From Paenibacillus tianmuensis (GTDB lineage: Bacteria > Bacillota > Bacilli > Paenibacillales > NBRC-103111), in the NCBI RefSeq assembly GCF_900100345.1, contig NZ_FMTT01000005.1, positions 64,184 to 128,183 of the forward strand: a stretch of DNA of 64,000 nucleotides, read 5' to 3'. The position numbers were made by a program, and so were the translations under genes. The stretch's first letter is position 1, and each line of letters begins with the position of its first letter. Below the pieces are notes generated by a model. The model saw only the letters and a list, made by a program, of their open reading frames with translations. It searched no databases and was not told where the DNA came from. Positions 1 to 22,430 of the stretch are shown piece by piece.

Positions 1-2930
1 TCGCGCGGCATGAGACGCTGCGCACCGGCTTTGAAATGGTGAACGGCGAAGCGGTGCAGCGGGTTTACCCGCAAGCGGACTTTGCCGTGGAGCATGTGAA
101 GGCGAGCGAAGAGGAAGCGGGAGAGGTTGTACGTCAATTCGTCCGCGCGTTCGATCTGTCGAAGCCGCCGCTGCTGCGGGTAGGTTTGATCGAGCTGGCG
201 GAAGAGCGTCATATCCTGATGTTCGACATGCATCACATCGTTTCCGACGGCGTCTCGATGGACGTTCTGGTGGAAGAGTTCAGCCGATTGTACGGCCGGG
301 AAGAGCTGGAGCCGCTGCGGATTCAGTACAAGGATTATGCGGCATGGCAGCAGTCCGAAGGGCAACAGGAGCTGCTGAAGCGGCAGGAAGCGTACTGGCT
401 GGATCAGTTCCAAGGGGAGCTGCCGGTGCTGGAAATGCCGACGGATTATGCGCGTCCGGCGATGCAGAGCTACGAAGGACATGCGCTTCAATTTTTCATA
501 GATGAGCAGAAGAGCGAAGGCCTGAAGCGGCTCGCGGCTGAAAGCGGATCGACGCTGTACATGGTGCTGCTTGCGGCGTATACGATCCTGCTGCACAAAT
601 ATACAGGTCAGCAGGACCTGATTGTAGGGACGCCGATTGCGGGAAGAAACCATGGCGATGTGCAGCCGCTGATCGGCATGTTCGTCAATACGCTGGTGAT
701 CCGCAGCTATCCTTCCGGGGAGAAGACGTTCCTGGATTATTTGAAAGAGGTCAAGGAAACGACCTTGGGCGCGTACGAGCACCAGAACTATCCGTTCGAA
801 GAGCTGGTGGACAAAGTACAGGTTGCCCGTGACTTAAGCCGCAACCCGCTCTTTGACACGATGTTTACTTTGCAAAACACGGAAAACAAGGAGATCCGAC
901 TCCCGGGACTTCAGTTAACTCCATATCCGAGTGAGGAAATCGTATCCCAATTTGACCTGAGCTTGGACGTGGCGGAAATCGGCGGCGGTCTGGCGTACAT
1001 CCTTGAGTATGCGACTGCCTTGTATAAAAGGGAGACGGTCGAACGGCTAGCGAAGCACTTCGAACAGCTGCTCGAAGCGATCGTGAACGATCCGGGCGCT
1101 AAGATTGCGGCGTTTGGCCTGCTGACCGCGGAAGAGAAGGAGCACATTCAGCATGCGTTCAATCCGGCGCTGCCTGAGCTGCCGCCGGAGGAGACGTTCC
1201 ACCGGTTGTTCGAAGAGCAGGCAGCGCGCACCCCGGAAGCGACGGCGGTCATGTATGAGGACAAGCAGCTGACGTACGGGGAGCTGAACGAGCGGGCGAA
1301 CCGGCTGGCTTGCACGCTGCGCGAGGGCGGCATCGGCAGAGAATCGATCGTCGGCATTTTGGCCGACCGTTCGGTGGACCTGCTGGTCGGCGTCATGGCG
1401 GTCTGGAAGGCGGGGGGCGCATATGTGCCGCTCGATCCGGAGTATCCGTCCGATCGCATCCGGTTCATGCTGGAGGACAGCGGGGCTACGGTGCTGCTGA
1501 CGCAAACCCATCTGCAGGACCGGGCCCAAACGTGGCTGGAAGAAGACTCAGCGCTGCAAAGCGTGCGCTGCCTGTGCCTTGATGACGAGCAGTCGTACAG
1601 CGGAGACGGAGCGAACGGGCCTGACACGAGCGAGCCGCACGATCTGGCGTACGTGATCTACACGTCAGGCACGACGGGACGGCCGAAAGGCGTCATGATC
1701 GAGCACCGCAGCCTAGTCAATACGGCAGCGGCCTATCGCCGGGAATACCGGCTGGATCAGTTCCCGGTGCGGCTGCTGCAATTGGCGAGCTTCTCCTTCG
1801 ACGTGTTCGTCGGGGATATCGCCCGGACGCTGTACAACGGCGGAACGATGGTCATTTGCCCGAAGGACGACCGCATCGACCCGACTCGTCTGTATGGCTG
1901 GATTCGCGATCGGCAGATTACGATCTTCGAATCGACGCCTGCGCTGATCGTGCCGTTCATGGAGTATGTAGCGGAGCAAGGCTTGGATATGAGCTGGATG
2001 GAGACGCTGATTACAAGCTCGGACAGCTGCGGCGTGACGGACTACCGGCTGCTGCAGGAGCGGTACGGCTCGCAGTTTAGAATCATCAACGCATACGGGG
2101 TAACGGAGGCGGCGATCGATTCAAGCTTCTACGACGAGCCGCTGAGCAAGCTGCCGGAGGCGGGGAACGTGCCGATCGGCAAGGCATGGCTGAACGCCCG
2201 GTTCTACATTGTGGATGCTCACTTGAACCTGGTACCGGTAGGAGTATTGGGCGAGCTGTGTATCGGCGGCGGCGGCGTAGCGCGGGGGTATTTGAACCGT
2301 CCGGAGCTGAACGAAGAGAAGTTTGTCGACAGCCCGTTCGTTCCCGGAGAGCGGCTGTACCGCACGGGCGACCTGGCGCGCTGGATGGAAGACGGCAACG
2401 TGGACTTCATCGGCCGGATCGATTGCCAGCGGAAGGAAGCGGTCGTCGTCATCCGGGAGGACGGCAACGGACAAAAGGCGCTGTGCGCATACTTCACGGC
2501 GGACGAGGAGCTGCAAGCAAGCGGGCTGCGAAGCGCGATGGCACAGGAGCTGCCGGGGTACATGATTCCGTCGTACTTCGTGCAGCTGGAGCGATTGCCG
2601 CTGACACCGAACGGGAAGATCGACCGCAAGGCGCTGCCAGCGCCGGAAGGTGGCGCAAGCGGGTCGGAGTACACCGCGCCACGCACACCGCTGGAAGCGA
2701 AGCTGGTCCGTATATGGCAGGAAGTGCTGGCAGTTACAACCGTCGGGGTGAAGGACAACTTTTTCGATCTCGGTGGACATTCGCTGCGCGCAACGACGCT
2801 TGTCAGCAAGGTGCACAAGGAGCTGAACGTCGATCTGCCGCTGCGGGACGTGTTCCGCTGCGCTACGATTGAAGAGATGGCCCAAGCGATTGCCCAGATG
2901 GAGCAACAGGAGCACGTATCCATTCCGCTG
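1..2930 (+). repeat. Dab-module repeat, copy 1 (C-A-T)
   Basis: The first base of the window aligns with base 11561, and similarity continues to about 2930 / 14560 apart from the 66-nt gap near 2430. Long runs are identical (for example 1-104 except one base). This is an intra-operon duplication of a whole C-A-T module. Confidence 0.85.
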
Positions 2931-4268
2931 CTTGAAGAACGCGATTATTACATGTTGTCCTCCGTACAAAGACGACTCTTCATCCAGCACCAGATGGAAG
3001 GTGCGGAGCTGAGCTACAACATGTCGGGAATGATGGTGCTTTCCGGGGCGTTGGACCGGAAACGGTTCGAAGAGGCGTTCCGTGGGCTGATTGCTCGCCA
3101 TGAAACGTTGCGTACCGGATTCGAAATGGTGAACGGCGAACCGATGCAGCGGGTCTACCCGGAAGTGGATTTTGCGTTGGAGTATATGCAAGCGAGCGAA
3201 GAGGAAGCGGAAAAGGTGGCCGGGCGATTCGTCCGCGTCTTTGATCTGGAGCATCCTCCGCTGCTGCGGGTCGGTCTGATCGAGGTGATACGGGAACGGC
3301 ACATTTTGATGTTTGATATCCACCACATCATTTCCGACGGCGTATCCACGGGCATTTTAATCGAAGAGCTGCTCCGTTTGTACAGCGGAGAGGAGCTGCC
3401 GCCTCTGCGCATTCAATATAAGGACTACGCCGCATGGCAGCAGTCCGAAGCGCGGGGTGAACGAATGAAGCGGCAAGAAGCCTATTGGTTGAACCTGTTG
3501 GATGGCGAGCTTCCTACGTTGGAGCTGCCAACCGATTTTGCCAGACCGGCCGTTCGCAGCTATGAGGGAGACGCGCTCGAATTCAGGATTGACAAGCAAA
3601 GAACCGAGGGGCTGCAGCGAATTGCAGAGGATACCGGATCGACGATCTATATGGTGCTGCTGGCGGTTTACTCGATCCTGCTGCATAAGTACTCGGGACA
3701 AGAAGACATCATCGTCGGCACGCCGATTTCAGGCAGAACCCACGCCGATATGGAACCGCTGATCGGGATGTTCGTCAACACGCTGGCGATCCGCAATTAT
3801 CCGGCCGGAGAGAAGCCGTTCCTGTCTTATCTGGAGGAAATGAAGGAAACATTGCTGGGAGCTTACGAAAACCAAGACTATCCGTTCGAGGAACTGGTGG
3901 AAAAAGTAAGGGGAACCCGGGACTTAAGCCGCCATCCGTTATTTGACACGATGTTTGTCATGGAAACCAAGGAAGAGCGGGTTAACCGCTTCGGCGAGCT
4001 AAGCATCGAGCCTTTTATTCAAACGGAGACGGTGGCCAAATTCGATTTGACTCTGGAGCTTACGTTGGAAGACGAAGACATTCAAGGTCGTTTTGAATAT
4101 TGCACCAAGCTGTTTGCCCGAAATATGATTGACAATTACGCCCAGGATTTACTGGAAATCATCTCCCGAATTTGCGAGCAGCCTTCTATCCTGCTGAAAG
4201 ACATTTCATTAAGCGGTCATTCGGAGCAAGGAGAGGACTTGGTAGAAGCAATCGATTTTGTATTCTGA
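1..4268 (+). CDS. NRPS subunit, 5'-partial: (C)-A(Dab)-T-C
   Basis: The reading frame is open from base 3, so the gene starts upstream. It begins inside a condensation domain (HHIVSDG at 231-251). An adenylation domain follows (YTSGTTGRPKG at 1659-1691; NGKIDRK with its lysine codon at 2616), then a carrier domain (GGHS, serine codon 2781), then a complete second condensation domain (HHIISDG at 3321-3341) that ends the protein. The specificity code read from the A domain is DVGEISAIDK, the 2,4-diaminobutyrate (Dab) code known from polymyxin synthetases. No epimerase follows, so the residue should stay L. By comparison with octapeptin this would be Dab3. The terminal C domain has no A domain after it and must serve the next subunit. 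The A domain lacks core A8 (separate entry), so activity is doubtful. The upstream modules and the fatty-acyl starter C domain are outside the window. Confidence 0.93.
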   Translation, partial: ARHETLRTGFEMVNGEAVQRVYPQADFAVEHVKASEEEAGEVVRQFVRAFDLSKPPLLRVGLIELAEERHILMFDMHHIVSDGVSMDVLVEEFSRLYGREELEPLRIQYKDYAAWQQSEGQQELLKRQEAYWLDQFQGELPVLEMPTDYARPAMQSYEGHALQFFIDEQKSEGLKRLAAESGSTLYMVLLAAYTILLHKYTGQQDLIVGTPIAGRNHGDVQPLIGMFVNTLVIRSYPSGEKTFLDYLKEVKETTLGAYEHQNYPFEELVDKVQVARDLSRNPLFDTMFTLQNTENKEIRLPGLQLTPYPSEEIVSQFDLSLDVAEIGGGLAYILEYATALYKRETVERLAKHFEQLLEAIVNDPGAKIAAFGLLTAEEKEHIQHAFNPALPELPPEETFHRLFEEQAARTPEATAVMYEDKQLTYGELNERANRLACTLREGGIGRESIVGILADRSVDLLVGVMAVWKAGGAYVPLDPEYPSDRIRFMLEDSGATVLLTQTHLQDRAQTWLEEDSALQSVRCLCLDDEQSYSGDGANGPDTSEPHDLAYVIYTSGTTGRPKGVMIEHRSLVNTAAAYRREYRLDQFPVRLLQLASFSFDVFVGDIARTLYNGGTMVICPKDDRIDPTRLYGWIRDRQITIFESTPALIVPFMEYVAEQGLDMSWMETLITSSDSCGVTDYRLLQERYGSQFRIINAYGVTEAAIDSSFYDEPLSKLPEAGNVPIGKAWLNARFYIVDAHLNLVPVGVLGELCIGGGGVARGYLNRPELNEEKFVDSPFVPGERLYRTGDLARWMEDGNVDFIGRIDCQRKEAVVVIREDGNGQKALCAYFTADEELQASGLRSAMAQELPGYMIPSYFVQLERLPLTPNGKIDRKALPAPEGGASGSEYTAPRTPLEAKLVRIWQEVLAVTTVGVKDNFFDLGGHSLRATTLVSKVHKELNVDLPLRDVFRCATIEEMAQAIAQMEQQEHVSIPLLEERDYYMLSSVQRRLFIQHQMEGAELSYNMSGMMVLSGALDRKRFEEAFRGLIARHETLRTGFEMVNGEPMQRVYPEVDFALEYMQASEEEAEKVAGRFVRVFDLEHPPLLRVGLIEVIRERHILMFDIHHIISDGVSTGILIEELLRLYSGEELPPLRIQYKDYAAWQQSEARGERMKRQEAYWLNLLDGELPTLELPTDFARPAVRSYEGDALEFRIDKQRTEGLQRIAEDTGSTIYMVLLAVYSILLHKYSGQEDIIVGTPISGRTHADMEPLIGMFVNTLAIRNYPAGEKPFLSYLEEMKETLLGAYENQDYPFEELVEKVRGTRDLSRHPLFDTMFVMETKEERVNRFGELSIEPFIQTETVAKFDLTLELTLEDEDIQGRFEYCTKLFARNMIDNYAQDLLEIISRICEQPSILLKDISLSGHSEQGEDLVEAIDFVF
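2421..2441 (+). other. 66-nt in-frame deletion removing A8 in the Dab adenylation domain
   Basis: Here the protein reads GRIDCQRKEAVVV. The sister Dab modules at 13981-14070 and 17107-17190 have 30 codons between the same GRID and KEAVVV anchors, including KIRGYRIELGEVE. Here only 8 codons remain, so 22 codons (66 nt) are missing and the frame is kept. The lost stretch is core motif A8, the hinge and loop used when an A domain rotates into its thiolation state. Either the domain is damaged or near-identical repeats were mis-assembled. Confidence 0.85.
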
Positions 4269-4279
4269 CACGGACCGGC

Positions 4280-4315
4280 CGGAGTGTAGGTTAGCAGTCC
4301 ATAGCATACACTCCG
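4280..4315 (+). promoter_or_regulatory. intercistronic hairpin between NRPS subunits 1 and 2
   Basis: Arms CGGAGTGTA (4280-4288) and TACACTCCG (4307-4315) are perfectly complementary around an 18-nt loop. No T-run follows, so it is not a typical terminator. The same GAGTGTA/TACACTC stem core recurs in the next subunit gap at 19072-19106, suggesting a shared role such as mRNA processing or stability. Confidence 0.6.
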
Positions 4316-4353
4316 CCGGACTCGCTTTTACCGAATAGAGAGGAGAGAAGCAG

Positions 4354-7300
4354 GTGGCTTTTGAAAAGGAATCCTTATTTTGGAACGAAACATTCGGGGG
4401 TGAAGATTATACGCTAACGCTGCTGCCTTATAGTAAAACCCCGATCCATTCTACGCCCGACATTCAGTCGGTTTCCGGCTCTTTGTCGGCTGACGTAGGG
4501 CAGCGAATCTTAAAGATGAGCAAGGGTACCCCTTTGGCCGCATACATGATTTTATTGGCAGGAGTCCAATCCTTGCTTTATAAATATACCAACGAAAAAA
4601 ATATATTGCTGGGCATGCCGGTCATCAAGAAACCGAATGAGTCGCGGCGGCCTATTAACCATGCGGTCGTTCTCAAGAATACGATCCATGCCGAGACTAC
4701 CTTTAAATCCCTGTTAAACGAATTGAAATCGTCGGTTACGGATGCGATCCAGCATCAGAATATACCGTTCCTCAAAATGACGGAAAAGCTCCAGCTGCAG
4801 TATGCGGACGGGGTTCCTATCGTGAACACGCTTGTTTCATTGAACGAGCTGCATACCGTGGATATCGGCCACAACGTGGCATACGATTGTTTATTTCAAT
4901 TCGGACTGGAAAACGATTCGATTCATTACCGATTGATCTATAACGAACATCTGTATAGCGCCGAGTTTATGAACCGGGCCGCCAACCATTTGGATCATTT
5001 GTTCTCCTCTTTGTTATCCCAGCCTGAGCTTGAGCTCTGGAAAGCGGACATGTTGACGGAGTCTGAGAAGCAGCAGCTTCATGCTTTCAACGATACGGAT
5101 GCGGACTATGAACGGGAGAAGACGATCCATCGGCTAATCGAAGAGCAGGTGGAGCGTACCCCGGATCATGTGGCCGTGGTGTTCGGAAACGAGCGGTTGA
5201 CGTACCGGGAATTGAACGAGCGGGCGAACCGGCTGGCGCGGACGCTTAGAGCCGAGGGCGTAGTGAAAGACAAGTTCGTCGGCATCATGACCGAGCGTTC
5301 GCTCGAAATGGTCGTAGGCATTTTCGGTACGTTAAAAGCCGGGGGCGCGTATTTGCCGATCGATCCGGAGTATCCGGAGGAGCGCATCAGCTATTTGCTG
5401 GAAGATTCGGGAGCGCAGCTGCTGTTGACGCAGCGCCGTTTGCAGGAGAAAGTGCCGTTTGCCGGGAAAGTGATCGCGCTGGATGACGAAGAAGCCTACA
5501 GCGAGGACGGCTCGAATCTGGAGCCGGTCACCGGGCCGAACGATCTCGCCTATGTGATCTACACGTCCGGAACGACGGGCAAGCCCAAAGGGGTTATGGT
5601 GGAGCATCACGGGCTGTGCAGTTTGAAGATGATGTTTAAGGAAACGCTGCAAATGACCGGGCAGGACAGAGTGATCCAATTCGCCAGTTTGTCATTCGAT
5701 GCGTCGTGCTGGGAAATGTTCCAGACGTTATTTTTCGGCGCAGCTTTATATATCCCGACGGCCGAGACGATTCTGGATCAACATTTGTTTGAAAGCTTTA
5801 TGAACGACCATGGCATTACGACGGCTACTTTGCCGCCGACGTATGCGGCCTACTTGACCCCGGAGCGTATGCCGAGCTTGAAAAGGCTGATCTCGGCCGG
5901 CTCCGCAGCCTCCTTGGAGCTTATTCAGCAGTGGAAAGACAAGGTGAAGTATTTCAACGCGTACGGTCCGACCGAGGATTCGATTTGCACGTCCATCTGG
6001 ACAGCTTCCAAGAACGATAACATCGCCTTGGTTTCCATCGGTCGTCCTATTCATAATCATAAGATCTATATTGTAGATTCGCATCATCAATTGCTGCCTG
6101 TGGGTGTAGCCGGAGAATTGTGCATCGGGGGCGTAGGATTGGCCCGAGGGTACTTGAACCGTCTCGAATTGACAGCGGAGAAATTCACGGACAATCCGTT
6201 CGTGCCGGGCGAGCGGATGTACAAGACAGGCGACTTGGCAAGATGGCTGCCGGACGGCAATATCGAATATTTGGGCCGCATCGACCATCAAGTGAAAATT
6301 CGCGGTTATCGGATCGAGATCGGCGAGATTGAAGAGCAGCTCTTGAAGCTCCCGTCCGTTCAGGAAGCGATCGTGGTGGCGCGTGAGGATGCCGCCGGAC
6401 AATATCAGCTGTGCGCGTACTTTGTGGCGGAGACGCCGCTGGCGGTCGGCGAGCTGAGGGGAGCCTTGTCGCAAAAGCTGCCGGGCTACATGATCCCGGC
6501 GCACTTCGTGCAGCTTCCGCGGATGCCGCTGACGCCGAATGGGAAGATCGACCGCAAGGCGCTGCCTGCGCCGGAAGGCCATGCGCTTGGAGGACGGGAA
6601 TATGTAGCGCCCCGCTCCGAGACGGAGAAAGCTCTTGCCGCCGTATGGCAGTCGGTGCTCAGTGCCGAGCGTGTCGGGGTGACGGATCATTTCTTCGAGC
6701 TTGGCGGCGATTCCATCAAGTCGATTCAGGTGTCGTCCCGGCTGCATCAAGCCGGATACAAGCTGGAAATCAAAGATTTATTTAAATATCCGACCATTGC
6801 ACAGCTCAGTCTGCACGTCCAGCCGATTGCCCGCACGGTGAATCAGGGCGAGGTGACCGGCGAGACCGTACTGACTCCGATCCAACGCTGGTTCTTCGAG
6901 CAGCAATTTGCCGACCCGCATCACTTCAATCAATCCGTCATGCTGTACCGGAAGCAAGGGTTCGACGAAGCGGCCATTCGCAAGGTGCTGCGGAAGATTA
7001 CGGAGCATCACGATGCGCTGCGGATGGTATTCCGCAAGGGAGAAAACGGTTATGCGGCATGGAACCGGGGAATCGGGGAAGGCGAGTTGTACAGCTTTGA
7101 GGTGATTGACTTCAAGGGCTTGTCGGCGTACGGCCAAGCGGTCGAAGCTAAAGCGAACGAGATCCAGAGCAGCATCGATCTGGAGAAGGGGCCTTTTGTG
7201 AAAGCGGGCTTGTTCCAATGTGCGGACGGCGATCATTTGCTCATCGCAGTTCACCATGGCGTTGTGGACGGGGTATCGTGGCGGATTTTGATGGAAGATA

Positions 7301-13300: not shown

Positions 13301-16300
13301 GGGAATACCGGCTGGATCAGTTCCCGGTGCGGCTGCTGCAACTGGCAAGCTTCTCCTTCGACGTGTTCGTCGGGGATATCGCGCGGACGCTGTACAACGG
13401 CGGAACGATGGTCATTTGCCCGAAGGACGACCGCATCGATCCGACTCGTCTGTATGGCTGGATTCGCGATCGGCAGATTACGATCTTCGAATCGACGCCT
13501 GCGCTGATCGTGCCGTTCATGGAATATGTAGCGGAGCAAGGCTTGGATATGAGCTCAATGGAGCTGCTGATCACAAGCTCGGACAGCTGCAGCGTGACGG
13601 ACTACCGGCTGCTGCAGGAGCGCTACGGCTCGCAGTTTAGAATCATCAACGCGTACGGGGTCACGGAAGCGGCGATCGATTCGAGCTTCTACGACGAGCC
13701 GCTGAGCAAGCTGCCGGAGGCAGGGAACGTGCCGATCGGCAAGGCATGGCTGAACGCCCGGTTCTACATTGTGGATGCTCACCTTAATCCGGTACCGGTA
13801 GGAGTATTGGGCGAGCTGTGCATCGGAGGCGTCGGCGTAGCGCGGGGGTATTTGAACCGTCCGGAGCTGAACGAAGAGAAGTTTGTCGACAGCCCGTTCG
13901 TTCCCGGAGAGCGGTTGTACCGCACGGGGGACTTGGCGCGCTGGATGGAAGACGGCAACGTGGACTTCATCGGGCGGATCGACAACCAGGCGAAAATTCG
14001 GGGGTACCGGATCGAGCTCGGCGAGGTCGAAACGCAGCTGCTGAAAGCGGACGGCGTCAAGGAAGCGGTCGTCGTCATCCGGGAGGACGGGAACGGACAA
14101 AAGGCGCTGTGCGCGTACTTCACGGCGGATGAGGAGCTGCAAGCAAACGGGCTGCGAAGCGCGATGGCGCAGGAGCTGCCGGGCTACATGATTCCGTCGT
14201 ATTTCGTGCAGCTGGAGCGATTGCCGCTGACGCCGAACGGGAAGATCGACCGCAAGGCGCTGCCTGCGCCGGAAGGAGGCGCGAGCGGGTCGGAGTATAC
14301 CGCGCCACGCACACCGCTGGAAGCGAAGCTGGTCCGTATATGGCAGGAAGTGCTGGGAGTTGCAAGCGTCGGCGTGAAGGACAACTTCTTCGATCTCGGA
14401 GGACACTCGCTGCGCGCGACAACGCTTGTAAGCAAGGTGCACAAGGAGATGAACGTCGATCTGCCGCTGCGGGACGTGTTCCGCTACGCTACGATTGAGG
14501 AGATGGCTCAAGCGATTGCCCGGATGGAAGAAGGGGCGTTTTCAGCGATACCGGTGGCGGAGGAGAGGGAGTACTACCTGCTATCTTCCGCACAGAAGCG
14601 GCTTTTCATCCTGCACCAGCTGGAAGGAGCGGAACAAAGCTACAACATGCCGGGCGCGATGCTGCTCGAAGGGGCGTTGGAGCGCGAACGGTTCGAAGAG
14701 GCGTTCCGCGGGCTGATCGCGCGTCATGAAACGCTGCGCACCGGCTTTGAGATGGTGAACGGCGAAGCGGTACAGTGGATCTATCCGTCGGTGGATTTTG
14801 CCGTGGAGTATGTGCAAGCGAGCGAGGAAGCCGCCGGGAAAGTGGTAGAGGACTTCGTCCGCGCGTTCGATCTGGCGAAGCCGCCGCTGCTGCGGGTAGG
14901 TCTGGTTGAGCTGGCGGAAGAACGCTATATTCTGATGTTCGACATGCACCACATCGTCTCCGACGGTGTCTCGATGGACGTTCTAGTCGAAGAGTTCGTC
15001 CACTTGTACGACGGAGAAGAATTGGAGCCGCTGCGGATTCAGTACAAGGATTACGCGGCATGGCAGCAGTCCGAAGCGCAGCAGGAGCAGTTGAAGCGGC
15101 AGGAAGCGTATTGGCTGGAACAGTTCCAAGGGGAACTGCCGGTGCTGGAAATGCCAACGGATTTTGCGCGTCCGGCCATGCAGAGCTATGAAGGGCATAC
15201 GCTTCACTTCTTCATGGATGCGCAGAAGAGCGAAGGTCTGAAGCGGCTCGCGGCCGAAAGCGGAGCGACGCTGTATATGGTGCTGCTTGCGGCGTATACG
15301 ATTCTGCTGCATAAATATACGGGTCAGCAAGACGTGGTTGTAGGAACACCTATTGCGGGAAGGAACCATAGCGATGTGCAGCCGCTGATCGGGATGTTTA
15401 TCAACACGCTGGCGATCCGTAGTTATCCGGATGGCGAGAAGACGTTCCTAGCGTATCTGGAAGAAGTGAAGGAAACGATGTTCGGCGCTTACGAGCACCA
15501 GAACTATCCGTTTGAAGAGCTGGTGGACAAAGCGCAGGTTACCCGTGATTTAAGCCGCAATCCGCTCTTTGACACGATGTTTACCTTGCAGAACACGGAA
15601 AGCAAAGATTTTGAGCTTGAAGGGCTCCGGTTGGCTCCGTATCCGAGCGAATATGGGATGGCGAAATTTGATCTGAGCTTGGATGTGATCGAAGAAAACG
15701 ACGGTCTGGAGTACAGCCTTGAATATGCAACTGCTTTGTACAAAAGGGAGACGGTGGAACGGCTGGCGAAGCACTTCGAACAACTGCTCGAAGCGATCGT
15801 GAACGATCCGGGGGCGACAATTGCAGCGCTGGAACTGTTGTCTGCGGAAGAAAAGGAGCAGCTTCACGCATTCAACCCCGCGGTATCCGAGCTGCCGCCG
15901 GAGAAGACGTTCCGCCGGCTGTTCGAAGAGCAGGCGGCGCGCACGCCGGAAGCGACGGCAGTCGTGTACGAGGACAAGCAGTTGACGTACGGGGAGCTGA
16001 ACGAACAAGCGAACCGACTGGCTTGCACGCTGCGCGAGGGCGGCATCGGCAGAGAATCGATCGTTGGCATTCTAGCCGACCGTTCGGTGGACCTGCTGGT
16101 CGGCGTCATGGCGGTCTGGAAAGCAGGGGGCGCGTACGTGCCGCTCGATCCGGAATATCCGTCGGATCGCATCCGGTTCATGCTGGAGGATAGCGGGGCT
16201 ACGGTGCTGCTGACGCAAACCCATCTGCAGGACCACGCCCAAGCGTGGCTGGAAGAAGACTCAGCGCTGCAAAGCGTGCGCTGCCTGTGCCTCGACGACG

Positions 16301-16998
16301 AGAAGTCGTACAGCGGAGACGGAGCGAACGGGCCCGACGCGAGCGAGCCGCACGATCTGGCGTACGTGATCTACACGTCGGGGACGACGGGACGGCCGAA
16401 AGGCGTCATGATCGAGCACCGCAGCCTGGTTAATACGGCAGCGGCTTACCGCAGGGAGTACCGGCTGGATCAGTTCCCGGTGCGGCTGCTGCAATTGGCG
16501 AGCTTCTCCTTCGACGTGTTCGTCGGGGATATCGCCCGGACGCTGTACAACGGCGGAACGATGGTCATTTGCCCGAAGGACGACCGCATCGATCCGACTC
16601 GTCTGTATGGCTGGATACGCGACCGGCAGATTACGATCTTCGAATCGACGCCTGCGCTGATCGTGCCATTCATGGAATATGTAGCGGAGCAAGGCTTGGA
16701 TATGAGCTCGATGGAGCTGCTGATCACAAGCTCGGACAGCTGCAGCGTGACGGACTACCGGCTGCTGCAGGAGCGCTACGGCTCGCAGTTTAGAATCATC
16801 AACGCGTACGGGGTCACGGAGGCGGCGATCGATTCGAGCTTCTACGACGAGCCGCTGAGCAAGCTGCCGGAGGCAGGGAACGTGCCGATCGGCAAGGCAT
16901 GGCTGAACGCCCGGTTCTACATTGTGGATGCTCACCTGAACCCGGTACCGGTAGGTGTGCTGGGCGAGCTGTGCATCGGCGGCGTCGGTCGGAGCTGA
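4354..16998 (+). CDS. NRPS subunit 2: half-C, A(Phe)-T-E, C-A(Ile/Leu/Val)-T, C-A(Dab)-T, C-A(Dab, truncated by frameshift)
   Basis: GTG start with AGGAGAGAAG just upstream. Residues 1 to about 245 match only the C-terminal lobe of a condensation domain, with no HHxxxDG. Module 1: A domain (A3 motif near residue 403, code DAWTIAAICK, identical to the GrsA Phe code), carrier serine 787, epimerase with HHGVVDG near 967, so D-Phe. Module 2: DCL-type C domain (HILMDG near 1441), A domain code DGFLLGAVYK (branched chain, nearest to Ile codes), carrier serine 2300. Module 3: C (HHIVSDG near 2480), A code DVGEISAIDK (Dab), carrier serine 3352. Module 4: C (near 3532) and an A domain with the same Dab code (A3 motif near 4007) that stops at residue 4214 because of a 25-nt deletion. 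Without it the gene would run to 19031 and encode about 4900 residues. Confidence 0.92.
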   Translation: MAFEKESLFWNETFGGEDYTLTLLPYSKTPIHSTPDIQSVSGSLSADVGQRILKMSKGTPLAAYMILLAGVQSLLYKYTNEKNILLGMPVIKKPNESRRPINHAVVLKNTIHAETTFKSLLNELKSSVTDAIQHQNIPFLKMTEKLQLQYADGVPIVNTLVSLNELHTVDIGHNVAYDCLFQFGLENDSIHYRLIYNEHLYSAEFMNRAANHLDHLFSSLLSQPELELWKADMLTESEKQQLHAFNDTDADYEREKTIHRLIEEQVERTPDHVAVVFGNERLTYRELNERANRLARTLRAEGVVKDKFVGIMTERSLEMVVGIFGTLKAGGAYLPIDPEYPEERISYLLEDSGAQLLLTQRRLQEKVPFAGKVIALDDEEAYSEDGSNLEPVTGPNDLAYVIYTSGTTGKPKGVMVEHHGLCSLKMMFKETLQMTGQDRVIQFASLSFDASCWEMFQTLFFGAALYIPTAETILDQHLFESFMNDHGITTATLPPTYAAYLTPERMPSLKRLISAGSAASLELIQQWKDKVKYFNAYGPTEDSICTSIWTASKNDNIALVSIGRPIHNHKIYIVDSHHQLLPVGVAGELCIGGVGLARGYLNRLELTAEKFTDNPFVPGERMYKTGDLARWLPDGNIEYLGRIDHQVKIRGYRIEIGEIEEQLLKLPSVQEAIVVAREDAAGQYQLCAYFVAETPLAVGELRGALSQKLPGYMIPAHFVQLPRMPLTPNGKIDRKALPAPEGHALGGREYVAPRSETEKALAAVWQSVLSAERVGVTDHFFELGGDSIKSIQVSSRLHQAGYKLEIKDLFKYPTIAQLSLHVQPIARTVNQGEVTGETVLTPIQRWFFEQQFADPHHFNQSVMLYRKQGFDEAAIRKVLRKITEHHDALRMVFRKGENGYAAWNRGIGEGELYSFEVIDFKGLSAYGQAVEAKANEIQSSIDLEKGPFVKAGLFQCADGDHLLIAVHHGVVDGVSWRILMEDIALGFEQAEKGEEIRFPAKTDAYRTWSEQLAAYAQGPVMENERAYWQRITQTPVLPLPKDRQADESLQLDSELMIVQLSRGETEQLLKRVHRAYNTEMNDILLTALGMAVQKWSGYDRVLVNLEGHGRESILTDIDITRTVGWFTSKYPVVLEPERDKDLSYQIKKVKENLRQIPNKGIGYSVCRYMSGNADDFDWGAEPEINFNYLGQFDQDLENNDMGISPYPSGLQASDRQARSFVLDMNGMVLDGSLSLELSYSRKEYRRETMEQLALWLQESLQELIAHCAAKERPELTPSDVQYKGLSVTDLEQIVEQTRHSGEIENIYTLTPMQKGMWFHSAMDRQAGAYFEQARFMLLGALDVDLFSKSWAELAARHVVLRTNFYSGWKGEPLQIVYRDKPVGFEYEDLRHLPIDEKAAYTEKKAKEDKLRGFDLERDALVRVTVMRTEDEKYRVLWSFQHILMDGWCLPQLMQELFGTYAAYVGNKHPERAAVSAYSQYIEWLDKQDDDAAARYWSEYLSGYEGQTALPLRKTDLPNGGYVPDHVVCELGKSLTERMDRVAKQHQVTMNTLLQAAWGVILQKYNGTGDVVFGSVVSGRPAEIPGIEEMIGLFINTIPVRVACEAGTGFADVMERLQEQALESGRYDYYPLYEIQARSAQKQDLINHIIAFENYPMDEQMEQAGGADSGGLAIADVDMAEQTNYDFNVTVVPGEEMEIRFDYNANVFDRSTIQRLKGHLVYVLEQIVANPRIAVEDLELTTAEESTEIIERFNDTTTEFPREKTLHQLFEEQAERIPDAVAVVFEHRQWTYRELNERVNRLARTLRASGVDKERVVGIMAERSLDMIVGIMAVLKAGGAYVPIDAEYPEERIRYMIEDSEAQVMLVQRHMQERVPVQRLMVILDDEASYHADGSKVGRSNGATDLACVIYTSGTTGKPKGNLVTHCNIVRIVRNTNYIDITDQDRVLQMSSYSFDGAVFDIFGALTNGARLVLIPREMMLEIGKLAELIERQQITVALITTAFFNVLVDVNVDCLRHMRAVLFGGERVSVSHVRRALQHIGPGKIIHAYGPSESTVYATYFNVNELAEDAVNVPIGRPISNTATYIVSSKNKLQPIGVAGELCVAGEGLVRGYLNRPELTAEKFVDNPFVPGERMYRTGDLARWLPDGTIEYVGRMDDQVKIRGFRIELGEVEAHLLKVEVIQKATVVVRETASGEKQLCAYFVADRELQAHEVRSALAQELPAYMIPSYFVQLEQMPLTNNGKVDRRALPAPEESLHTEAEHTAPRTPLESELSDIWKSVLGLEKVGVTDNFFDVGGHSLRATTLVSKMHKELNVDFPLRDVFRYPTIEEMAQEIARMEEGAFSAIPVAEEREHYPLSSAQKRLFILHQLEGAEQSYNMPGAMLLEGALERERFEEVFRGLIARHETLRTGFEMVNGEAVQRVYPQADFAVEHMKASEEEAGEVVRQFVRAFDLSKPPLLRVGLVELAEERHILMFDMHHIVSDGVSMDVLVEEFVRLYDGETLEPLRIQYKDYAAWQQSEAQQEQLKRQEAYWLDQFQGELPVLEMPTDYARPAMQSYEGHSIEFFIDDQTSEGLKRLAAESGATLYMVLLAAYTILLHKYTGQQDVVVGTPIAGRNHGDVQPLIGMFVNTLAIRSYPAGEKTFQDYLEEVKETTLGAYEHQNYPFEELVEKVQVARDLSRNPLFDTMFSLQNMENKEFQLEGLRLAPYPSDYAMAKFDLSLDMSEDGGGLECSLEYATALYKRETVERLAKHFGQLLEVIVHEPGATIAALDMLTVAEKEQIQHAFNPAMPELPPEKTFHRLFEEQAARTPEAIAVVYEDTQLMYGELNERANRLVCTLREGGIGRESIVGILADRSVDLLVGVMAVWKAGGAYVPLDPEYPSDRIRFMLEDSGATVLLTQTHLQERAQAWLAEDSALQSVRCLCLDDEQSYSGDGANGPDASEPHDLAYVIYTSGTTGRPKGVMIEHRSLVNTAAAYRREYRLDQFPVRLLQLASFSFDVFVGDIARTLYNGGTMVICPKDDRIDPTRLYGWIRDRQITIFESTPALIVPFMEYVAEQGLDMSSMELLITSSDSCSVTDYRLLQERYGSQFRIINAYGVTEAAIDSSFYDEPLSKLPEAGNVPIGKAWLNARFYIVDAHLNPVPVGVLGELCIGGVGVARGYLNRPELNEEKFVDSPFVPGERLYRTGDLARWMEDGNVDFIGRIDNQAKIRGYRIELGEVETQLLKADGVKEAVVVIREDGNGQKALCAYFTADEELQANGLRSAMAQELPGYMIPSYFVQLERLPLTPNGKIDRKALPAPEGGASGSEYTAPRTPLEAKLVRIWQEVLGVASVGVKDNFFDLGGHSLRATTLVSKVHKEMNVDLPLRDVFRYATIEEMAQAIARMEEGAFSAIPVAEEREYYLLSSAQKRLFILHQLEGAEQSYNMPGAMLLEGALERERFEEAFRGLIARHETLRTGFEMVNGEAVQWIYPSVDFAVEYVQASEEAAGKVVEDFVRAFDLAKPPLLRVGLVELAEERYILMFDMHHIVSDGVSMDVLVEEFVHLYDGEELEPLRIQYKDYAAWQQSEAQQEQLKRQEAYWLEQFQGELPVLEMPTDFARPAMQSYEGHTLHFFMDAQKSEGLKRLAAESGATLYMVLLAAYTILLHKYTGQQDVVVGTPIAGRNHSDVQPLIGMFINTLAIRSYPDGEKTFLAYLEEVKETMFGAYEHQNYPFEELVDKAQVTRDLSRNPLFDTMFTLQNTESKDFELEGLRLAPYPSEYGMAKFDLSLDVIEENDGLEYSLEYATALYKRETVERLAKHFEQLLEAIVNDPGATIAALELLSAEEKEQLHAFNPAVSELPPEKTFRRLFEEQAARTPEATAVVYEDKQLTYGELNEQANRLACTLREGGIGRESIVGILADRSVDLLVGVMAVWKAGGAYVPLDPEYPSDRIRFMLEDSGATVLLTQTHLQDHAQAWLEEDSALQSVRCLCLDDEKSYSGDGANGPDASEPHDLAYVIYTSGTTGRPKGVMIEHRSLVNTAAAYRREYRLDQFPVRLLQLASFSFDVFVGDIARTLYNGGTMVICPKDDRIDPTRLYGWIRDRQITIFESTPALIVPFMEYVAEQGLDMSSMELLITSSDSCSVTDYRLLQERYGSQFRIINAYGVTEAAIDSSFYDEPLSKLPEAGNVPIGKAWLNARFYIVDAHLNPVPVGVLGELCIGGVGRS
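11561..14560 (+). repeat. Dab-module repeat, copy 2 (C-A-T)
   Basis: This is the intact reference copy: C, A with the Dab code, and T, including full A7 and A8 motifs. It is nearly identical at base level to 1-2930 and highly similar to 14717-17690. Confidence 0.85.
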
Positions 16999-17690
16999 AC
17001 GAAGAGAAGTTTGTCGACAGCCCGTTCGTTCCCGGAGAGCGGCTGTACCGCACGGGCGACTTGGCGCGCTGGATGGAAGACGGCAACGTGGACTTCATCG
17101 GGCGGATCGACAACCAGGCGAAAATTCGGGGGTACCGGATCGAGCTCGGCGAGGTCGAAACGCAGCTGCTGAAAGCGGACGGCGTCAAGGAAGCGGTCGT
17201 CGTCATCCGGGAGGACGGCAACGGACAAAAGGCGCTGTGCGCGTACTTCACGGCGGACGAGGAGCTGCAAGCAAGCGGGCTGCGAAGCGCGATGGCACAG
17301 GAGCTGCCGGGCTACATGATTCCGTCGTACTTCGTGCAGCTGGAGCGATTGCCGCTGACACCGAACGGGAAGATCGACCGCAAGGCGCTGCCGGCGCCGG
17401 AAGGAGGCGCGAGCGGGTCGGAGTATACCGCGCCACGCACACCGCTGGAAGCGAAGCTGGTCCGTATTTGGCAAGAAGTGCTGGGAGCTGTAACTGTCGG
17501 CGTGAAGGACAACTTCTTCGATCTCGGCGGACACTCGCTGCGCGCAACGACGCTTGTCAGCAAGGTGCACAAGGAGTTGCACGTCGATCTGCCGCTGCGG
17601 GACGTGTTCCGCTACGCTACGGTGGAAGAGATGGCCCAGGCGATTGCCCGGATGGAAGAGGGGGCGTTTTCAGCGATACCGGTGGCGGAG
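14717..17690 (+). repeat. Dab-module repeat, copy 3 (C-A-T)
   Basis: Tandem to copy 2 and highly similar to it. The condensation part is somewhat more diverged, and the adenylation part is near-identical except for a 25-nt gap near 16988. Confidence 0.83.
16981..16998 (+). other. 25-nt deletion causing a frameshift in the fourth A domain
   Basis: Copy 2 reads GGCGTCGG, 24 bases encoding part of VARGYLNR, then TCCGGAGCTG (13829-13870). Here GGCGTCGG runs straight into TCGGAGCTG, 25 nt shorter. Frame 1 then hits TGA at 16996-16998, while homology resumes in frame 3 from 16989. Restoring 25 nt gives one frame from 4354 to 19031, exactly 4901 codons with the stop. Confidence 0.85.
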
Positions 17691-19031
17691 GAGAGGGTGT
17701 ATTACCCGTTATCTTCCGCGCAGAAGCGGCTCTTCATCCAGCATCAGCTGGAAGGGGCGGATCAGCTGTACAACATGCCGGAAATTATGCGGCTGGAAGG
17801 GCCGGTGGATCTCGACCGCTTCCAAGAAGCTTTCTGGAAGCTGATCGCGCGTCATGAGACGCTGCGTACCAGCTTTGCGATGGTGCATGGCGAGCCTGTC
17901 CAGCAGGTGCACGACGAAGTCGAATTTGCCGTGGAGTACAGCAAGGCCGCTCAAGAAGAGGCCGCGGACATCGTTCGCCGTTTCGTCCGCGCGTTTGATT
18001 TGAAGACAGCGCCTTTGATTCGCGTAGAATTAGTTGAATTGGAGCAGGGCGTTCACATTCTGATGTTCGACATGCATCACATTGTCTCTGACGGCGTTTC
18101 GATGGCCATTTTGGTGGAAGAGTTTACCGAGCTCTATGCAGGCGAGGAGCTGCCGCCTCTGCGGATTCAGTACAAGGATTATGCCGTATGGCAGCAATCC
18201 GAAGCGTACAGGGAGCGGACAAGTCGGCAGGAGGCGTATTGGCTGCAGAAGCTGGAAGGCGACCTTCCTACGGTGGATTTGCCTACCGACTACGAGCGTC
18301 CCGCGACCCGGAGCTTCGACGGAGCGCACATCGAGTTCGAGGTCGACGCCGCTCTTACGAAGCAGTTGAACGAGCTGGCGGCCAAGCACGACAGCACGCT
18401 GTACATGGTTCTGTTGTCGGCCTATACCGTGCTGCTTTCCAAGTACAGCGGGCAAGAAGACATCATTGTCGGAATGCCGGTTGCTGGAAGAACGCATGCT
18501 GACTTAGAGCCGATCCTTGGGATGTTTGTCAATACGCTCGCGATCCGCAACAATCCGGCAGGAGACAAAACGTTCCTCTCCTACTTGGCGGAAGTCAAAG
18601 AGTCGGCTTTGGGGGCGTTTGAGCATCAAGACTATCCTTTCGAAGAACTCGTAGAACGGTTGAATGTCAAGCGGGACCCAAGCCGCAATCCGATATTCGA
18701 CACGATGTTCGACTTGCAAAATATTGAGGAGCGCGAACCCGGTTTCGAAGCGTTGAAGCTGACTCCGTACGATCTTGACGAGGCGGAAGAAGCGAAATTC
18801 GATCTCACCTTGTTCATGTCCGAAGACAACGGAGTGCTCAACGGAGGCTTCCATTATTGCGCCAAATTGTTCAAAGCGGCGATGATCCAGACCATGGCTC
18901 AAGATTTACTGCTGGTGCTGGCTCAAATTTGCGAAGATCCCCACATCCAATTGAGCGGGGTCCAATTAAATAAACAAGCGGCAAGCCATAAGAACAAGAG
19001 CTCGATCGACAGCATTGAATTTGCATTCTAG
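16989..19031 (+). pseudogene. NRPS subunit 2, 3' fragment after the frameshift: A(Dab) C-terminal part-T-C
   Basis: This frame continues the Dab adenylation domain from SELNEEKF. It has an intact A8 (KIRGYRIELGEVE) and A10 (lysine codon at 17370), a carrier domain (GGHS, serine codon 17535) and a full condensation domain (HHIVSDG from 18075) that closes the subunit. The tail SIEFAF resembles the end of subunit 1 (AIDFVF). There is no ribosome site or plausible start near 16989, so it would not be translated alone unless the deletion is a sequence error. The terminal C domain is needed to join the chain to the last residue on subunit 3. Confidence 0.85.
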
Positions 19032-19058
19032 ACAAAGCTCTGCAAGGAACAGCTTGTT

Positions 19059-19114
19059 CATGCCTGAAAAAGAGTGTATGTCCGAATTCGTTCGCGACAT
19101 ACACTCCGGGCATG
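19059..19114 (+). promoter_or_regulatory. intercistronic hairpin between NRPS subunits 2 and 3
   Basis: Perfect 11-bp arms GAGTGTATGTC (19072-19082) and GACATACACTC (19096-19106) enclose a 13-nt loop. An outer 6-bp stem CATGCC (19059-19064) / GGCATG (19109-19114) extends it past a bulge. No T-run follows. It shares its stem core with the hairpin at 4280-4315 and lies 30 nt before the start of subunit 3. Confidence 0.65.
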
Positions 19115-19144
19115 TTGTCATCACATCTTAGGGGAGGGGTACGA

Positions 19145-22100
19145 ATGAAATCCTTGTTTGCAAAGGAAGAAATGTATTGGAACGAAAAGTTCGATGTCGA
19201 AGACAGCATGAGCTTCCTGCCCTACAGCAGCTCCTCCATGAAAATCAGCAGTGCGGATCTTTCGACAGCGCCCAACGTGATTCAGCGTACGCTGCCGAAG
19301 GAGCTGTCCGATCGCATCGGACGCCTCGCCAATGGATCGGATATGGCCGTTTTTATGATCGTATTGGCAGGGGTCAGCGCTCTGCTCTATGCCTATACCA
19401 AGAAAGAGAACGTGCTGGTAGGCATCCCCGCATCGGCGCTGAACGACGAGAATCCGCCGATTCAAGATGTTCTGCTTATTAAAAATAACATCCGCCGCGA
19501 AAGCACGTTTAAATCGCTGCTGGGCCAAATTAAAATGTCGGTCGGCGAAGCTTTGGAACATCAGCATATTCCGTTCAGAAAAATGGTTCATTCCATGAAT
19601 TTCGAATATACTCCCGATGGTGTGCCTGTCGTGAACACATTGGTTTCCTTTAAAAAAATACACGGGTCTGATTTTGCAAAAGCCGTATCGGCCGATACCG
19701 TATTTGATTTTGATGCGGACCATGATTCCATCCGGTTGAGCGTAAGTTTTGACGGCAACCGATACGATCAACATTTCATGGCCGCGGCGGTCGATCATCT
19801 TGTGCGGCTGCTGTCCGTCGTCTTGTTTCAACCGGAGCTTGAGCTCGGCGCCGTGGACATGTTGTCGGAGTCCGAAAAGCATCAGCTGCTGTATGGGTTC
19901 AACGATACCGAGACGGAATACTCGCGGGATAAAACGATCCATCAACTGATTGAGGAGCAGGCGGAACGGGTTCCGGACGCGGTGGCGGTTGTTTTTGAGC
20001 AGGAGCGGCTCACCTACTCCGAGCTGAACGAGCGGGCGAACCGGCTGGCCCGGACACTGCGGGCTGATGGCGTGCAGCCGGATCAATTGGTAGGCCTGAT
20101 GGTCGGGCGTTCGCTGGAGATCGTCGTCGGCATTCTGGGAATCTTGAAAGCCGGAGGCGCGTACGTGCCGATTGATCCGGAATATCCGGAGGAACGCATC
20201 CGCTATTTGCTGGAAGATTCGGGAGCGCGGCTGCTCTTGACGCAGCGGCACTTGCTGGAGCACGTATCGTTTGCCGGGAAAGCGATCGCGTTGGACGACG
20301 AGGCGGCCTACAGTGAGAATGGCTCGAATCTGGAGCCGGTCACCGGGCCGAATAATCTGGCTTATGTGATCTACACGTCGGGAACGACGGGTAAGCCCAA
20401 AGGGGTATTGGTAGAGCACCGTGGGCTGTGCAGCTTGAAAATGATGTTTGGGGAAACGCTGCAAATAAGCGAGCGGGACAGCGTGGTCCAATTCGCCAGC
20501 TTGTCGTTCGATGCGTCGTGCTGGGAAATTTTCAAAGCGCTATTCTTTGGCGCGGCTTTATATATTCCGACGGCCGAGACGATTCTGGACTATCGATTGT
20601 TCGAGAACTTCATGAACGAGAACGGGATTACGGCAACGATCCTGCCGCCGACGTATGCGGCCTATTTGAACCCCGATCGGATGCCGAGCCTCCAAAAGCT
20701 GATTACCGGAGGCTCTGCCGTTTCGGTCGAATTCGTTCAGCAGTGGAAAGACAAAGTGCAGTATTTTAACGCCTACGGTCCGACGGAAGCTTCGATCGTG
20801 ACTTCGGTTTGGACGGCTTCAACGGGGGCTGTCGACCGGAAGTCGATTCCGATCGGCCGTCCGATTCAGAATCACCGGATTCATATCGTAGATTCGCATC
20901 AACAGTTGCTGCCGGTCGGTGTGCCGGGGGAGCTGTGCATCGCCGGGGTAGGATTGGCTCGCGGCTATTTGAACCGTCCGGAGCTGACCGCAGAGAAGTT
21001 TGTGGACAATCCGTTCGCGTCGGGCGAGCGGATGTACCGGACCGGCGACTTGGCAAGATGGCTGCCGGACGGCAACATCGAATATATGGGCCGCATCGAT
21101 CATCAAGTGAAAATCCGCGGCTACCGGATCGAAATTGGCGAGGTCGAAGAGCAGCTTTTGAAGATCGCGTCCGTTCGAGAAGCGATCGTTATCGCGCGTG
21201 AAGACGCAAACGGACAAAATCAGCTGTGCGCCTACTTCGTGGCGCAGGCGAAGCTGAAGGCGACTGAATTGAAGGAAGCCATGGCGAGAGAGCTGCCGGG
21301 GTACATGATTCCGTCGCACCTTGTGCAGCTGGAGCGGATGCCGTTAACGCCGAATGGTAAAATCGACCGCAAGGCGCTGCCGGCTCCGGAAGCAAGTCAT
21401 TACGAAACGGAATACGTTGCGCCGCGTACGCTGCTTGAAATGAAGCTGGTCCAAATTTGGCAGGAAGTGCTCGGTTTAGATAAGATAGGAATAAAGGACG
21501 ATTTCTTCGAGCTCGGCGGAAACTCGATCAGCCTGATGCGGTTGATTCAACGAATCTACGACGAAACGGGAAGAGAAATTCCGCTGCATAAAGGATACCA
21601 GGATGTAACCGTCGAAGCGATGACGCTTGAGAATTGGGAATCCGGCTTTGAACAGGACGGCCATCATTTCATGCAGCTGAATAAGCATGGGGCGACAAAC
21701 GTGTTCTGCTTTCCTCCGGGAAGCGGATTCGGCATAGGCTATCGCGGGTTAGCGGACAAGCTGGAGAACCGGTACGCGGTGTACGGGATTGATTTCATTG
21801 ACGATTCCGATCGCTACGAGGACATGCTGAATCGTTATGTGGACGAGGTCATCCGCATTCAGGGTGAGGGGCCTTATGTGTTCCTCGGGTACTGCTTCGG
21901 CGGGAATTTGATGTTCGAAGTAGCCAAAACGATGGAAAAGAGAGGATACGAAGTATCGGATCTGATCATGGTAGATTCTTGGATTAAGGAAACCCTGACA
22001 CCGACGGATACGACGGAAAACGAGCTGCAAGAAACAATGGAGGATTTGTCGGAAACGGAAAAAGAACTGCTGGACAACCCCTTGATTCGAGAGCGTGTCC

Positions 22101-22396
22101 AGCAAAAGGTGCGTGCGACCTTGACATACGAAGCGCAATTGATCAACACAGGCGCCGTTCAGGCGAACATTCACGAGTTAATCGCGGAAGACAGCGATGC
22201 TTTCCGAATGGAGCACCAGCTGCCGTTATGGCGCGGAGCCGCGGGGCAAGCTTACGCGGAATATAAGCTCGCAGGCGCTCACGAAAAATTGCTGGAACCC
22301 GAATGCATTGATGGAACGTCGCTTGTCATTCATCGCATCCTCGATCAAATCATGGAACAGAACGACGCATCCCGAAAGGTGCTGCATGGAGGCTGA
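19145..22396 (+). CDS. NRPS terminal subunit: half-C, A(Leu)-T-TE
   Basis: The ATG at 19145 follows GGGGAGGGG and is preferred over an in-frame ATG at 19112 that has no ribosome site. The protein has 1083 residues. Residues 1 to about 245 again match only a C-terminal condensation lobe. The A domain (A3 motif near 410) gives code DAWIIGAIVK, close to the polymyxin-type Leu code. The carrier motif is FFELGGNS with serine 794. The C-terminal alpha/beta-hydrolase thioesterase carries GYCFGG, with cysteine 917 where type I thioesterases usually have serine, and AGAHEKLLE as the likely histidine motif. It should release, and probably cyclise, the peptide. A C-terminal Leu agrees with octapeptin Leu8; polymyxin would need Thr. 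Confidence 0.92.
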   Translation: MKSLFAKEEMYWNEKFDVEDSMSFLPYSSSSMKISSADLSTAPNVIQRTLPKELSDRIGRLANGSDMAVFMIVLAGVSALLYAYTKKENVLVGIPASALNDENPPIQDVLLIKNNIRRESTFKSLLGQIKMSVGEALEHQHIPFRKMVHSMNFEYTPDGVPVVNTLVSFKKIHGSDFAKAVSADTVFDFDADHDSIRLSVSFDGNRYDQHFMAAAVDHLVRLLSVVLFQPELELGAVDMLSESEKHQLLYGFNDTETEYSRDKTIHQLIEEQAERVPDAVAVVFEQERLTYSELNERANRLARTLRADGVQPDQLVGLMVGRSLEIVVGILGILKAGGAYVPIDPEYPEERIRYLLEDSGARLLLTQRHLLEHVSFAGKAIALDDEAAYSENGSNLEPVTGPNNLAYVIYTSGTTGKPKGVLVEHRGLCSLKMMFGETLQISERDSVVQFASLSFDASCWEIFKALFFGAALYIPTAETILDYRLFENFMNENGITATILPPTYAAYLNPDRMPSLQKLITGGSAVSVEFVQQWKDKVQYFNAYGPTEASIVTSVWTASTGAVDRKSIPIGRPIQNHRIHIVDSHQQLLPVGVPGELCIAGVGLARGYLNRPELTAEKFVDNPFASGERMYRTGDLARWLPDGNIEYMGRIDHQVKIRGYRIEIGEVEEQLLKIASVREAIVIAREDANGQNQLCAYFVAQAKLKATELKEAMARELPGYMIPSHLVQLERMPLTPNGKIDRKALPAPEASHYETEYVAPRTLLEMKLVQIWQEVLGLDKIGIKDDFFELGGNSISLMRLIQRIYDETGREIPLHKGYQDVTVEAMTLENWESGFEQDGHHFMQLNKHGATNVFCFPPGSGFGIGYRGLADKLENRYAVYGIDFIDDSDRYEDMLNRYVDEVIRIQGEGPYVFLGYCFGGNLMFEVAKTMEKRGYEVSDLIMVDSWIKETLTPTDTTENELQETMEDLSETEKELLDNPLIRERVQQKVRATLTYEAQLINTGAVQANIHELIAEDSDAFRMEHQLPLWRGAAGQAYAEYKLAGAHEKLLEPECIDGTSLVIHRILDQIMEQNDASRKVLHGG

Positions 22397-22430
22397 GCGG
22401 CGCCCGCATGCTTTGAAGGGGGATAACACG

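Follow-up and report, generated by a model that had tools for sequence, protein, structure and literature searches.

Octapeptins have been studied for their action on Gram-negative bacteria, and a review names, in the portion of its text consulted, producers from two species only (PMC12473245); there is also interest in them against polymyxin-resistant bacteria (PMC5786788). All papers are cited here for the portions of their text that were consulted. Octapeptin C is composed of D-2,4-diaminobutyrate (D-Dab), four L-Dab, two L-Leu and D-Phe (PMC12206863), and it carries Phe at position 4 together with an exocyclic D-residue (PMC12473245). The polymyxin synthetase PmxE–PmxA–PmxB is built from ten adenylation–carrier–condensation (A–T–C) modules with Dab codes and with Thr at positions 2 and 10, and its last subunit is an A–T–thioesterase (TE) protein of 1102 residues (PMC3708778); two transport genes, pmxC and pmxD, accompany it (PMC4397504). 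The specificity code DVGEISAI corresponds to L-Dab, and DGFLLGLV to L-Leu in the polymyxin synthetase of strain PKB1 (PMC3708778 Table 2), and contig 49 of Paenibacillus tyrfis YSS-72.2.G2, the record of our locus L035, is entered as 'Octapeptin C4, 64%' in a table of antiSMASH results (PMC10847853 Table 3). Here, we describe a three-gene nonribosomal peptide synthetase (NRPS) of P. tianmuensis, most of which lies in a window of 64,000 nucleotides, the whole stretch of DNA that was analysed (positions 64184–128183 of contig C30 in genome G000). From its sequence we identify the locus, with a probability of about 0.87, as an octapeptin-C-type synthetase that would make a cyclic lipopeptide.

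Domain models were built from the locus itself, and the positions of the specificity codes were mapped by alignment. The first subunit reads starter C (Cs)–A1 (DVGEISAIDK)–T–epimerization domain (E)–DCL–A2 (DVGEISAID)–gap–LCL–A3 (DVGEISAID)–T–LCL, the second reads half-C–A4 (DAWTIAAICK)–T–E–DCL–A5 (DGFLLGAVYK)–T–LCL–A6 (DVGEISAIDK)–T–LCL–A7 (DVGEISAID)–T–LCL and the third reads half-C–A8 (DAWIIGAIVK)–T–TE, with the TE ending at 22393. There are eight modules with the TE in the last, and the codes predict Dab at positions 1, 2, 3, 6 and 7, Phe at position 4 and Leu or a Leu-type residue at positions 5 and 8. The code DAWTIAAICK is, we assume, that of the Phe-activating domain of gramicidin S synthetase, and we likewise take the A4 and A8 codes to stand for Phe and Leu. 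With the gap after A2 unread, the only E domains are those of modules 1 and 4, and a DCL-type C domain comes directly after each; D residues are predicted at these two positions and at no others.

A tree of C domains from octapeptin-, polymyxin- and pelgipeptin-type synthetases and one further cluster, drawn without printed support values, splits starter, E, DCL and LCL domains, and every C and E domain of the locus groups in it as its position demands. The first C domain clusters with the first C domains of the polymyxin- and pelgipeptin-type synthetases, which predicts N-terminal fatty acylation; a sequence search of solved structures with this starter domain was not discriminating. The original prediction, made by eye from the window, had listed six A-domain codes followed by a TE, with an epimerase after the Phe module and a DCL-type C domain behind it, and had placed modules 1 and 2 upstream. 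The alignment recovers A3–A8 with these codes in these places and the TE after A8, the C domain behind the A4 epimerase groups with other post-E (DCL) domains, and the upstream DNA holds exactly two modules, both with Dab codes and the first with an E domain. The proposed octapeptin-C-like assembly line is borne out to this extent: eight modules in the order and with the predicted stereochemistry of octapeptin C.

The window begins immediately 3' of a 765-N assembly gap (C30:63419–64183) inside the synthetase. All three genes lie on the + strand, the first opening upstream of the window at C30:56219, and its 5' part (Cs–A1–T–E–DCL–A2) occupies C30:56219–63418. A2 is readable to the edge of the gap, giving nine of its ten code positions, and the carrier domain of module 2 would sit in the gap. 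Because the same A2–C3 junction in P. oleatilyticus spans about 0.8 kb, the gap, if its size is right, has no room for an extra module, and a hidden module there is unlikely. The features of the window, in window coordinates, are as follows.

1–4268, + strand: 3' part of the OctA-like gene, with C3 (3–1136), the Dab domain A3 (1179–2618), T3 (2664–2882) and, at its 3' end, the subunit-terminal C4 (2943–4226) followed by the tail ...EAIDFVF.
4354–16998, + strand: first part of the OctB-like gene, with half-C, A4 (Phe), T, E, DCL, A5 (Leu-type), T, C6, A6 (Dab), T, C7 and A7 (Dab) up to a frameshift near 16,989.
4354–5079, + strand: half-C domain 1, the C-terminal lobe of a condensation domain without HHxxxDG.
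16983–19031, + strand: remainder of the OctB-like gene in another frame, with the end of A7, T7 (17418–17636), the subunit-terminal C8 (17700–18980) and the tail ...DSIEFAF.
19145–22396, + strand: OctC-like gene, with half-C (19145–19891), A8 (Leu, 19907–21361), T (21407–21625) and TE (21662–22393).
19145–19891, + strand: half-C domain 2, of the same architecture as half-C domain 1.
22197–24212, + strand: ATP-binding cassette (ABC) exporter 1, longest frame.
24209–25942, + strand: ABC exporter 2, containing the cassette breakpoint near 25,400 relative to a pelgipeptin-type sister.
26057–32755, strand not assigned: downstream flank outside the cassette, with an NMT1-like binding protein, a permease, a response regulator, a histidine kinase and a DrrA-like ATPase.

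The OctC-like start at 19145 is common to P. oleatilyticus and P. tyrfis, with an alternative at 19112. The true start of exporter 1 is probably later than its longest frame, since this frame shares 200 bp with octC and its membrane domain does not start until residue 107. Upstream of the synthetase lie an EctB-like Dab transaminase, an alpha/beta hydrolase-like protein and a phosphopantetheinyl transferase (PPTase); the transaminase exceeds the cut-offs of three NCBIfam models (best 617.5 bits versus 438) and the PPTase exceeds its Pfam cut-off. The downstream flank at 26057–32755 is common to octapeptin- and pelgipeptin-type genomes. A two-component system (HisKA_3 kinase and LuxR-type regulator) stands beside the DrrA-like ABC ATPase and further frames at 29807–35077; this unit occurs with both types of cassette and could be a sensing or resistance unit. 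The window has a guanine + cytosine content of 53–58%. The draft genome (6.03 Mb, 113 contigs) is NRPS-rich, like many of the genus, with 63 condensation-domain matches on ten contigs (C24, C30, C32, C38, C41, C42, C44, C46, C52 and C69), at least two of which, C42 and C69, end within NRPS modules.

In the proposed pathway, the starter C domain would acylate Dab1, which E1 would convert to the D form, and the first subunit would then add Dab2 and Dab3. The second subunit would add Phe4, converted to D by E4, followed by Leu5, Dab6 and Dab7, and the third would add Leu8 before the TE releases the chain, presumably by cyclization onto the side chain of Dab2, which would give a heptapeptide ring. 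Dab may be supplied by the adjacent transaminase, the carrier domains may be primed by the adjacent PPTase and the two ABC proteins may export the product. At each hand-over after a C domain the upstream subunit would contribute a catalytic C domain and a Phe-ending tail, and the half-C lobe that opens the downstream subunit would probably dock the tail and hold the A domain.

The closest relatives agree with the octapeptin assignment. The TE is 88–90% identical to those of Paenibacillus sp. A3, P. oleatilyticus and P. tyrfis and 71–74% identical to those of three more distant relatives, and P. oleatilyticus (L072 and L073) has the same module order, intact from E1 to the TE, on a contig that begins inside E1. 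Compared by module order and published composition, the locus matches the octapeptin C4 synthetase in its eight modules, its predicted product D-Dab1–Dab–Dab–D-Phe4–Leu–Dab–Dab–Leu8 and its TE, and differs from it by lesions in the assembled P. tianmuensis copy. The polymyxin-type loci L039–L041 resemble it in a last subunit that starts with a half-C, and the pelgipeptin/polypeptin-type clusters in their two half-C interfaces, their chromosomal slot and the genes on either side of it (transaminase, hydrolase and PPTase upstream); Dab codes and exporters are also shared, and sister species have the pelgipeptin type at this very locus. However, the polymyxin line has ten modules and ends in Thr (Dab–Dab–Thr–TE in L039 and L041, Dab–Thr–TE in view in L040), and its TE is 64–65% identical to that of the locus. 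The pelgipeptin-type line has nine modules, Dab–Val/Ile–Dab–D-Phe–Leu–Dab–D-Val–Leu–Ser, an order that we take to be that of pelgipeptin/polypeptin, and its C, E, half-C and TE domains are 47–77% identical where covered (47–55% for the TE). Module count, the final Leu and the other codes rule out a polymyxin or pelgipeptin synthetase, to which we assign next to no likelihood. Alternatively, A4 and A5 might accept Leu, Ile, Val or Phe, and the line would then make a different octapeptin (subgroup A, subgroup B or a mixture); octapeptins do vary in the acyl chain and at positions 1, 4 and 5 (PMC12473245). This reading would also draw on A5, whose code departs in one residue from DGFLLGLV, the published code for Leu, and makes Leu5 the weakest assignment. 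It is nevertheless unlikely: A4 carries DAWTIAAICK, presumably a Phe code, and is followed by an E domain, which indicates D-Phe at position 4, that is, the C type.

Several points weigh against an intact octapeptin C line. The A5 code does not distinguish Leu from Ile or Val with certainty, and the assembled copy carries the 765-N gap in A2, an in-frame loss of 66 bp near 2430 in A3, including the A8 core motif, and a loss of 25 bp in A7 that causes the frameshift at about 16,989; because of the two deletions, K517, the residue that completes the codes of A3 and A7, is found on a separate piece in both domains. If real, these lesions would leave no product or a shorter one, and the cluster would be a decayed remnant. 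The lesions hit three of the five Dab A domains, all towards their 3' halves, where A3, A6 and A7 are 93–100% identical by block, as is typical of short-read assembly across repeats. The P. oleatilyticus copy has none of the A2, A3 and A7 lesions. Dab A domains likewise appear damaged in other assemblies, namely those of three distant octapeptin-type clusters (L036 has N runs, L037 lacks an A domain at a short N run and L038 has its A domains in two separate hits). The ratio of nonsynonymous to synonymous substitution rates (dN/dS) against the P. oleatilyticus copy is 0.10–0.33 in all 13 scored segments, which indicates purifying selection, although a loss of very recent date would escape this measure. 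We consider assembly error the more likely, if unproven, reading of the lesions, and a decayed cluster decidedly unlikely. The assignment of the P. tianmuensis cluster as one more octapeptin C locus, of an ordinary kind, is well supported.

The two subunit junctions are built alike. Both downstream subunits open with a half-C of about 245 residues lacking HHxxxDG, and both upstream subunits close with a complete C domain and a short tail. A folded half-C model (mean predicted local distance difference test score 71.6, predicted template modelling score 0.76) resembles the C-terminal lobe of C domains (best Z 19.7, 179 aligned residues, root-mean-square deviation 2.6). Half-Cs were found in at least 26 of 104 family genomes (E ≤ 1e-50) and in at least 12 of 398 class genomes, P. 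tianmuensis included (E ≤ 1e-45), both counts being lower bounds with at most 26 or 6 candidates scored per genome. The junction analysis covered 104 half-C rows, leaving aside two rows without a locus from the class search; five had no upstream domain in view and one was a broken fragment, and the remaining 98 were preceded by an LCL-type C domain. After removal of four exact duplicates, the tail ends in Phe in 94 of 94 cases from 37 genomes, many of them close relatives, and 91 of the 94 match the pattern [IVLFMAT][DEHQTK][FILVM]xF-end, which was composed after the tails had been seen. HHxxxDG is present in none of the 94 half-Cs, whereas HHxxxD is present in 53 of 54 full-length upstream C domains. 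Among NRPS frames without a following half-C, a Phe end was seen in one of 21, that one after an E domain, whereas all 11 frames before a half-C in the same listing, which overlap with the 94, end in Phe; the control frames, counted manually, stop within 60 residues of their last domain, include some fragments and exclude longer or open ends. A half-C label in C38 (L155) is a 5-bit fragment match and was not counted.

In the C-domain tree, the C domains that end a subunit cluster according to their interface, those of octapeptin- and pelgipeptin-type synthetases falling together and, at the last junction, those of the polymyxin type as well. The half-Cs have dN/dS values of 0.19 and 0.33 against P. 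oleatilyticus, which disfavours their being junk, though both values rank in the top three of the 13 segments. Tail and half-C distances correlate at 0.55, and tail and C-domain distances do likewise, at 0.55; given the C domain, the partial tail/half-C correlation is a weak 0.16 (three of 2000 permutations were as high), which counts against the docking proposal and suggests that the correlation is mostly shared descent. Co-variation was consequently dropped as proof of docking; that the tail docks on the half-C is a proposal. Like COM (communication-mediating) and other NRPS docking domains, the arrangement pairs a C-terminal peptide of the upstream subunit with an N-terminal partner of the downstream one (PMC11546977); in the locus, however, the break falls after a C domain, and an entire C-domain lobe takes the partner's place. 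ThdA has been reported to contain a truncated C* described as 'probably inactive' (PMC7253712), and COM-region deletions in bacillomycin D synthetase are cited in PMC11546977. The consulted portions of PMC11546977, PMC11751314, PMC3039948 and PMC8949500 do not describe a half-C/tail junction, which is not a claim that the junction is unreported.

Half-C starts preceded by a full C domain and Phe-ending tails, as at 4226–5079 and 18980–19891 of the window, were observed at loci L084–L152 and L173–L201, in several families of the class. Judged by frame lengths, the carriers apparently include synthetases that we take to be iturin-like. Within P. tianmuensis itself, contig C69 (L080) carries another NRPS, truncated by both ends of the contig, with a half-C junction and codes for Thr, Ser and Dab.

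Comparison of 25 genomes of the genus places the synthetase at a fixed locus. The Dab transaminase is present at 96–100% identity in ten of the 25, and a downstream flank gene is 96–100% identical in all ten. Four of these (P. tianmuensis, G010, G014 and G023) carry the octapeptin type, with TEs 89–100% identical, and six (G004, G005, G016, G019, G021 and G022) carry another TE, 48–56% identical. The pelgipeptin-type order was read fully in G022 and without the starter end in G021 and G016, whereas the typing of G004, G005 and G019 relies on the identities of TE, half-C and flanks. A single contig carries the synthetase with both flanks in P. tianmuensis, G016, G019, G021 and G022; in G004, G005, G010, G014 and G023 a different contig holds the upstream flank, so P. 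tianmuensis is the only octapeptin carrier that shows both junctions. Between P. tianmuensis and the six pelgipeptin-type genomes, identity is 86–99% for the upstream proteins, 52–55% for the starter C domain, 74–77% for the exporters (found in four of the six) and 92–98% for the downstream proteins. No relative of the exporter pair was found in the stretches fetched from G004 and G019 (L213 and L216), and the histidine kinase and DrrA were not found in that fetched from G005. In G019 little DNA separates the TE from the NMT1-like gene.

The identity breakpoints are sharp. Relative to the sister G016, DNA identity falls from 94.4% to about 70% near window position −8045, at the 3' end of the PPTase gene (from 98% to 68% in adjoining 250-bp blocks), and rises from 74% to 95% near 25,400, inside exporter 2. 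G021 and G022 break at the same places, with a more gradual downstream recovery, whereas identity to P. oleatilyticus is 90–99% throughout the downstream junction. The putatively swapped region is taken as −8045 to about 25400 (G016, G021 and G022 loci L082, L083, L210, L076–L079, L204 and L207). Identity to the distant octapeptin-type L036 and L038 stops at 25938, the end of exporter 2, and to L037 at 25893.

A core tree was built from the rpoB and gyrB regions of nine ingroup species (about 9.9 kb), with G019 left out for want of rpoB. In it, P. tianmuensis pairs with the pelgipeptin-type G016 (support 100), and the octapeptin-type G014 pairs with the pelgipeptin-type G022 (support 99). These two well-supported mixed pairs imply more than one change of type, and the octapeptin genomes as a single clade are rejected (approximately unbiased test, p ~1e-12). 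Trees of the flank genes likewise pair P. tianmuensis with G016 (0.96 for NMT1, 0.51 for the Dab transaminase). Parsimony gives three changes of type; of 2000 label shuffles, 917 gave three, 752 four and 331 fewer. Because the core tree has two regions and weak deeper nodes (45–59), three is a working estimate. Between P. tianmuensis and P. oleatilyticus the octapeptin cassette is about 92% identical, the flank genes 93.7–94.0% and the core regions 95.2%. A recent transfer between the sampled species is unseen, and since cassette identity is not above that of flanks or core, the exchanges would be old or from unsampled lineages.

These observations make it reasonably probable that the locus is an antibiotic slot, in which a block of about 33 kb comprising synthetase and exporters is swapped by homologous recombination between octapeptin and pelgipeptin types, with a conserved docking code (Phe-ending tails and half-Cs, at 94 of 94 junctions) helping to order the lines. 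With similar confidence, we suggest that the borders are the constant upstream side (Dab transaminase, hydrolase and PPTase) and the conserved ATPase end of exporter 2, precursor supply and neighbours being kept.

In conclusion, this study adds the genome of a predicted producer to the octapeptin producers named, with P. oleatilyticus giving a nearly complete reference cluster. The fixed-locus exchange, for which no literature search was made, and the uniform half-C junctions are the parts that specialists might find new. The half-C/tail junctions mark natural NRPS cut sites at which the downstream subunit begins at the acceptor lobe of a C domain, close to the split made by engineers in the exchange unit condensation domain (XUC) concept (PMC11546977). 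The swap between sister species illustrates how a single step may be enough for a producer to exchange its antibiotic, with no need to rebuild the supply of precursors.

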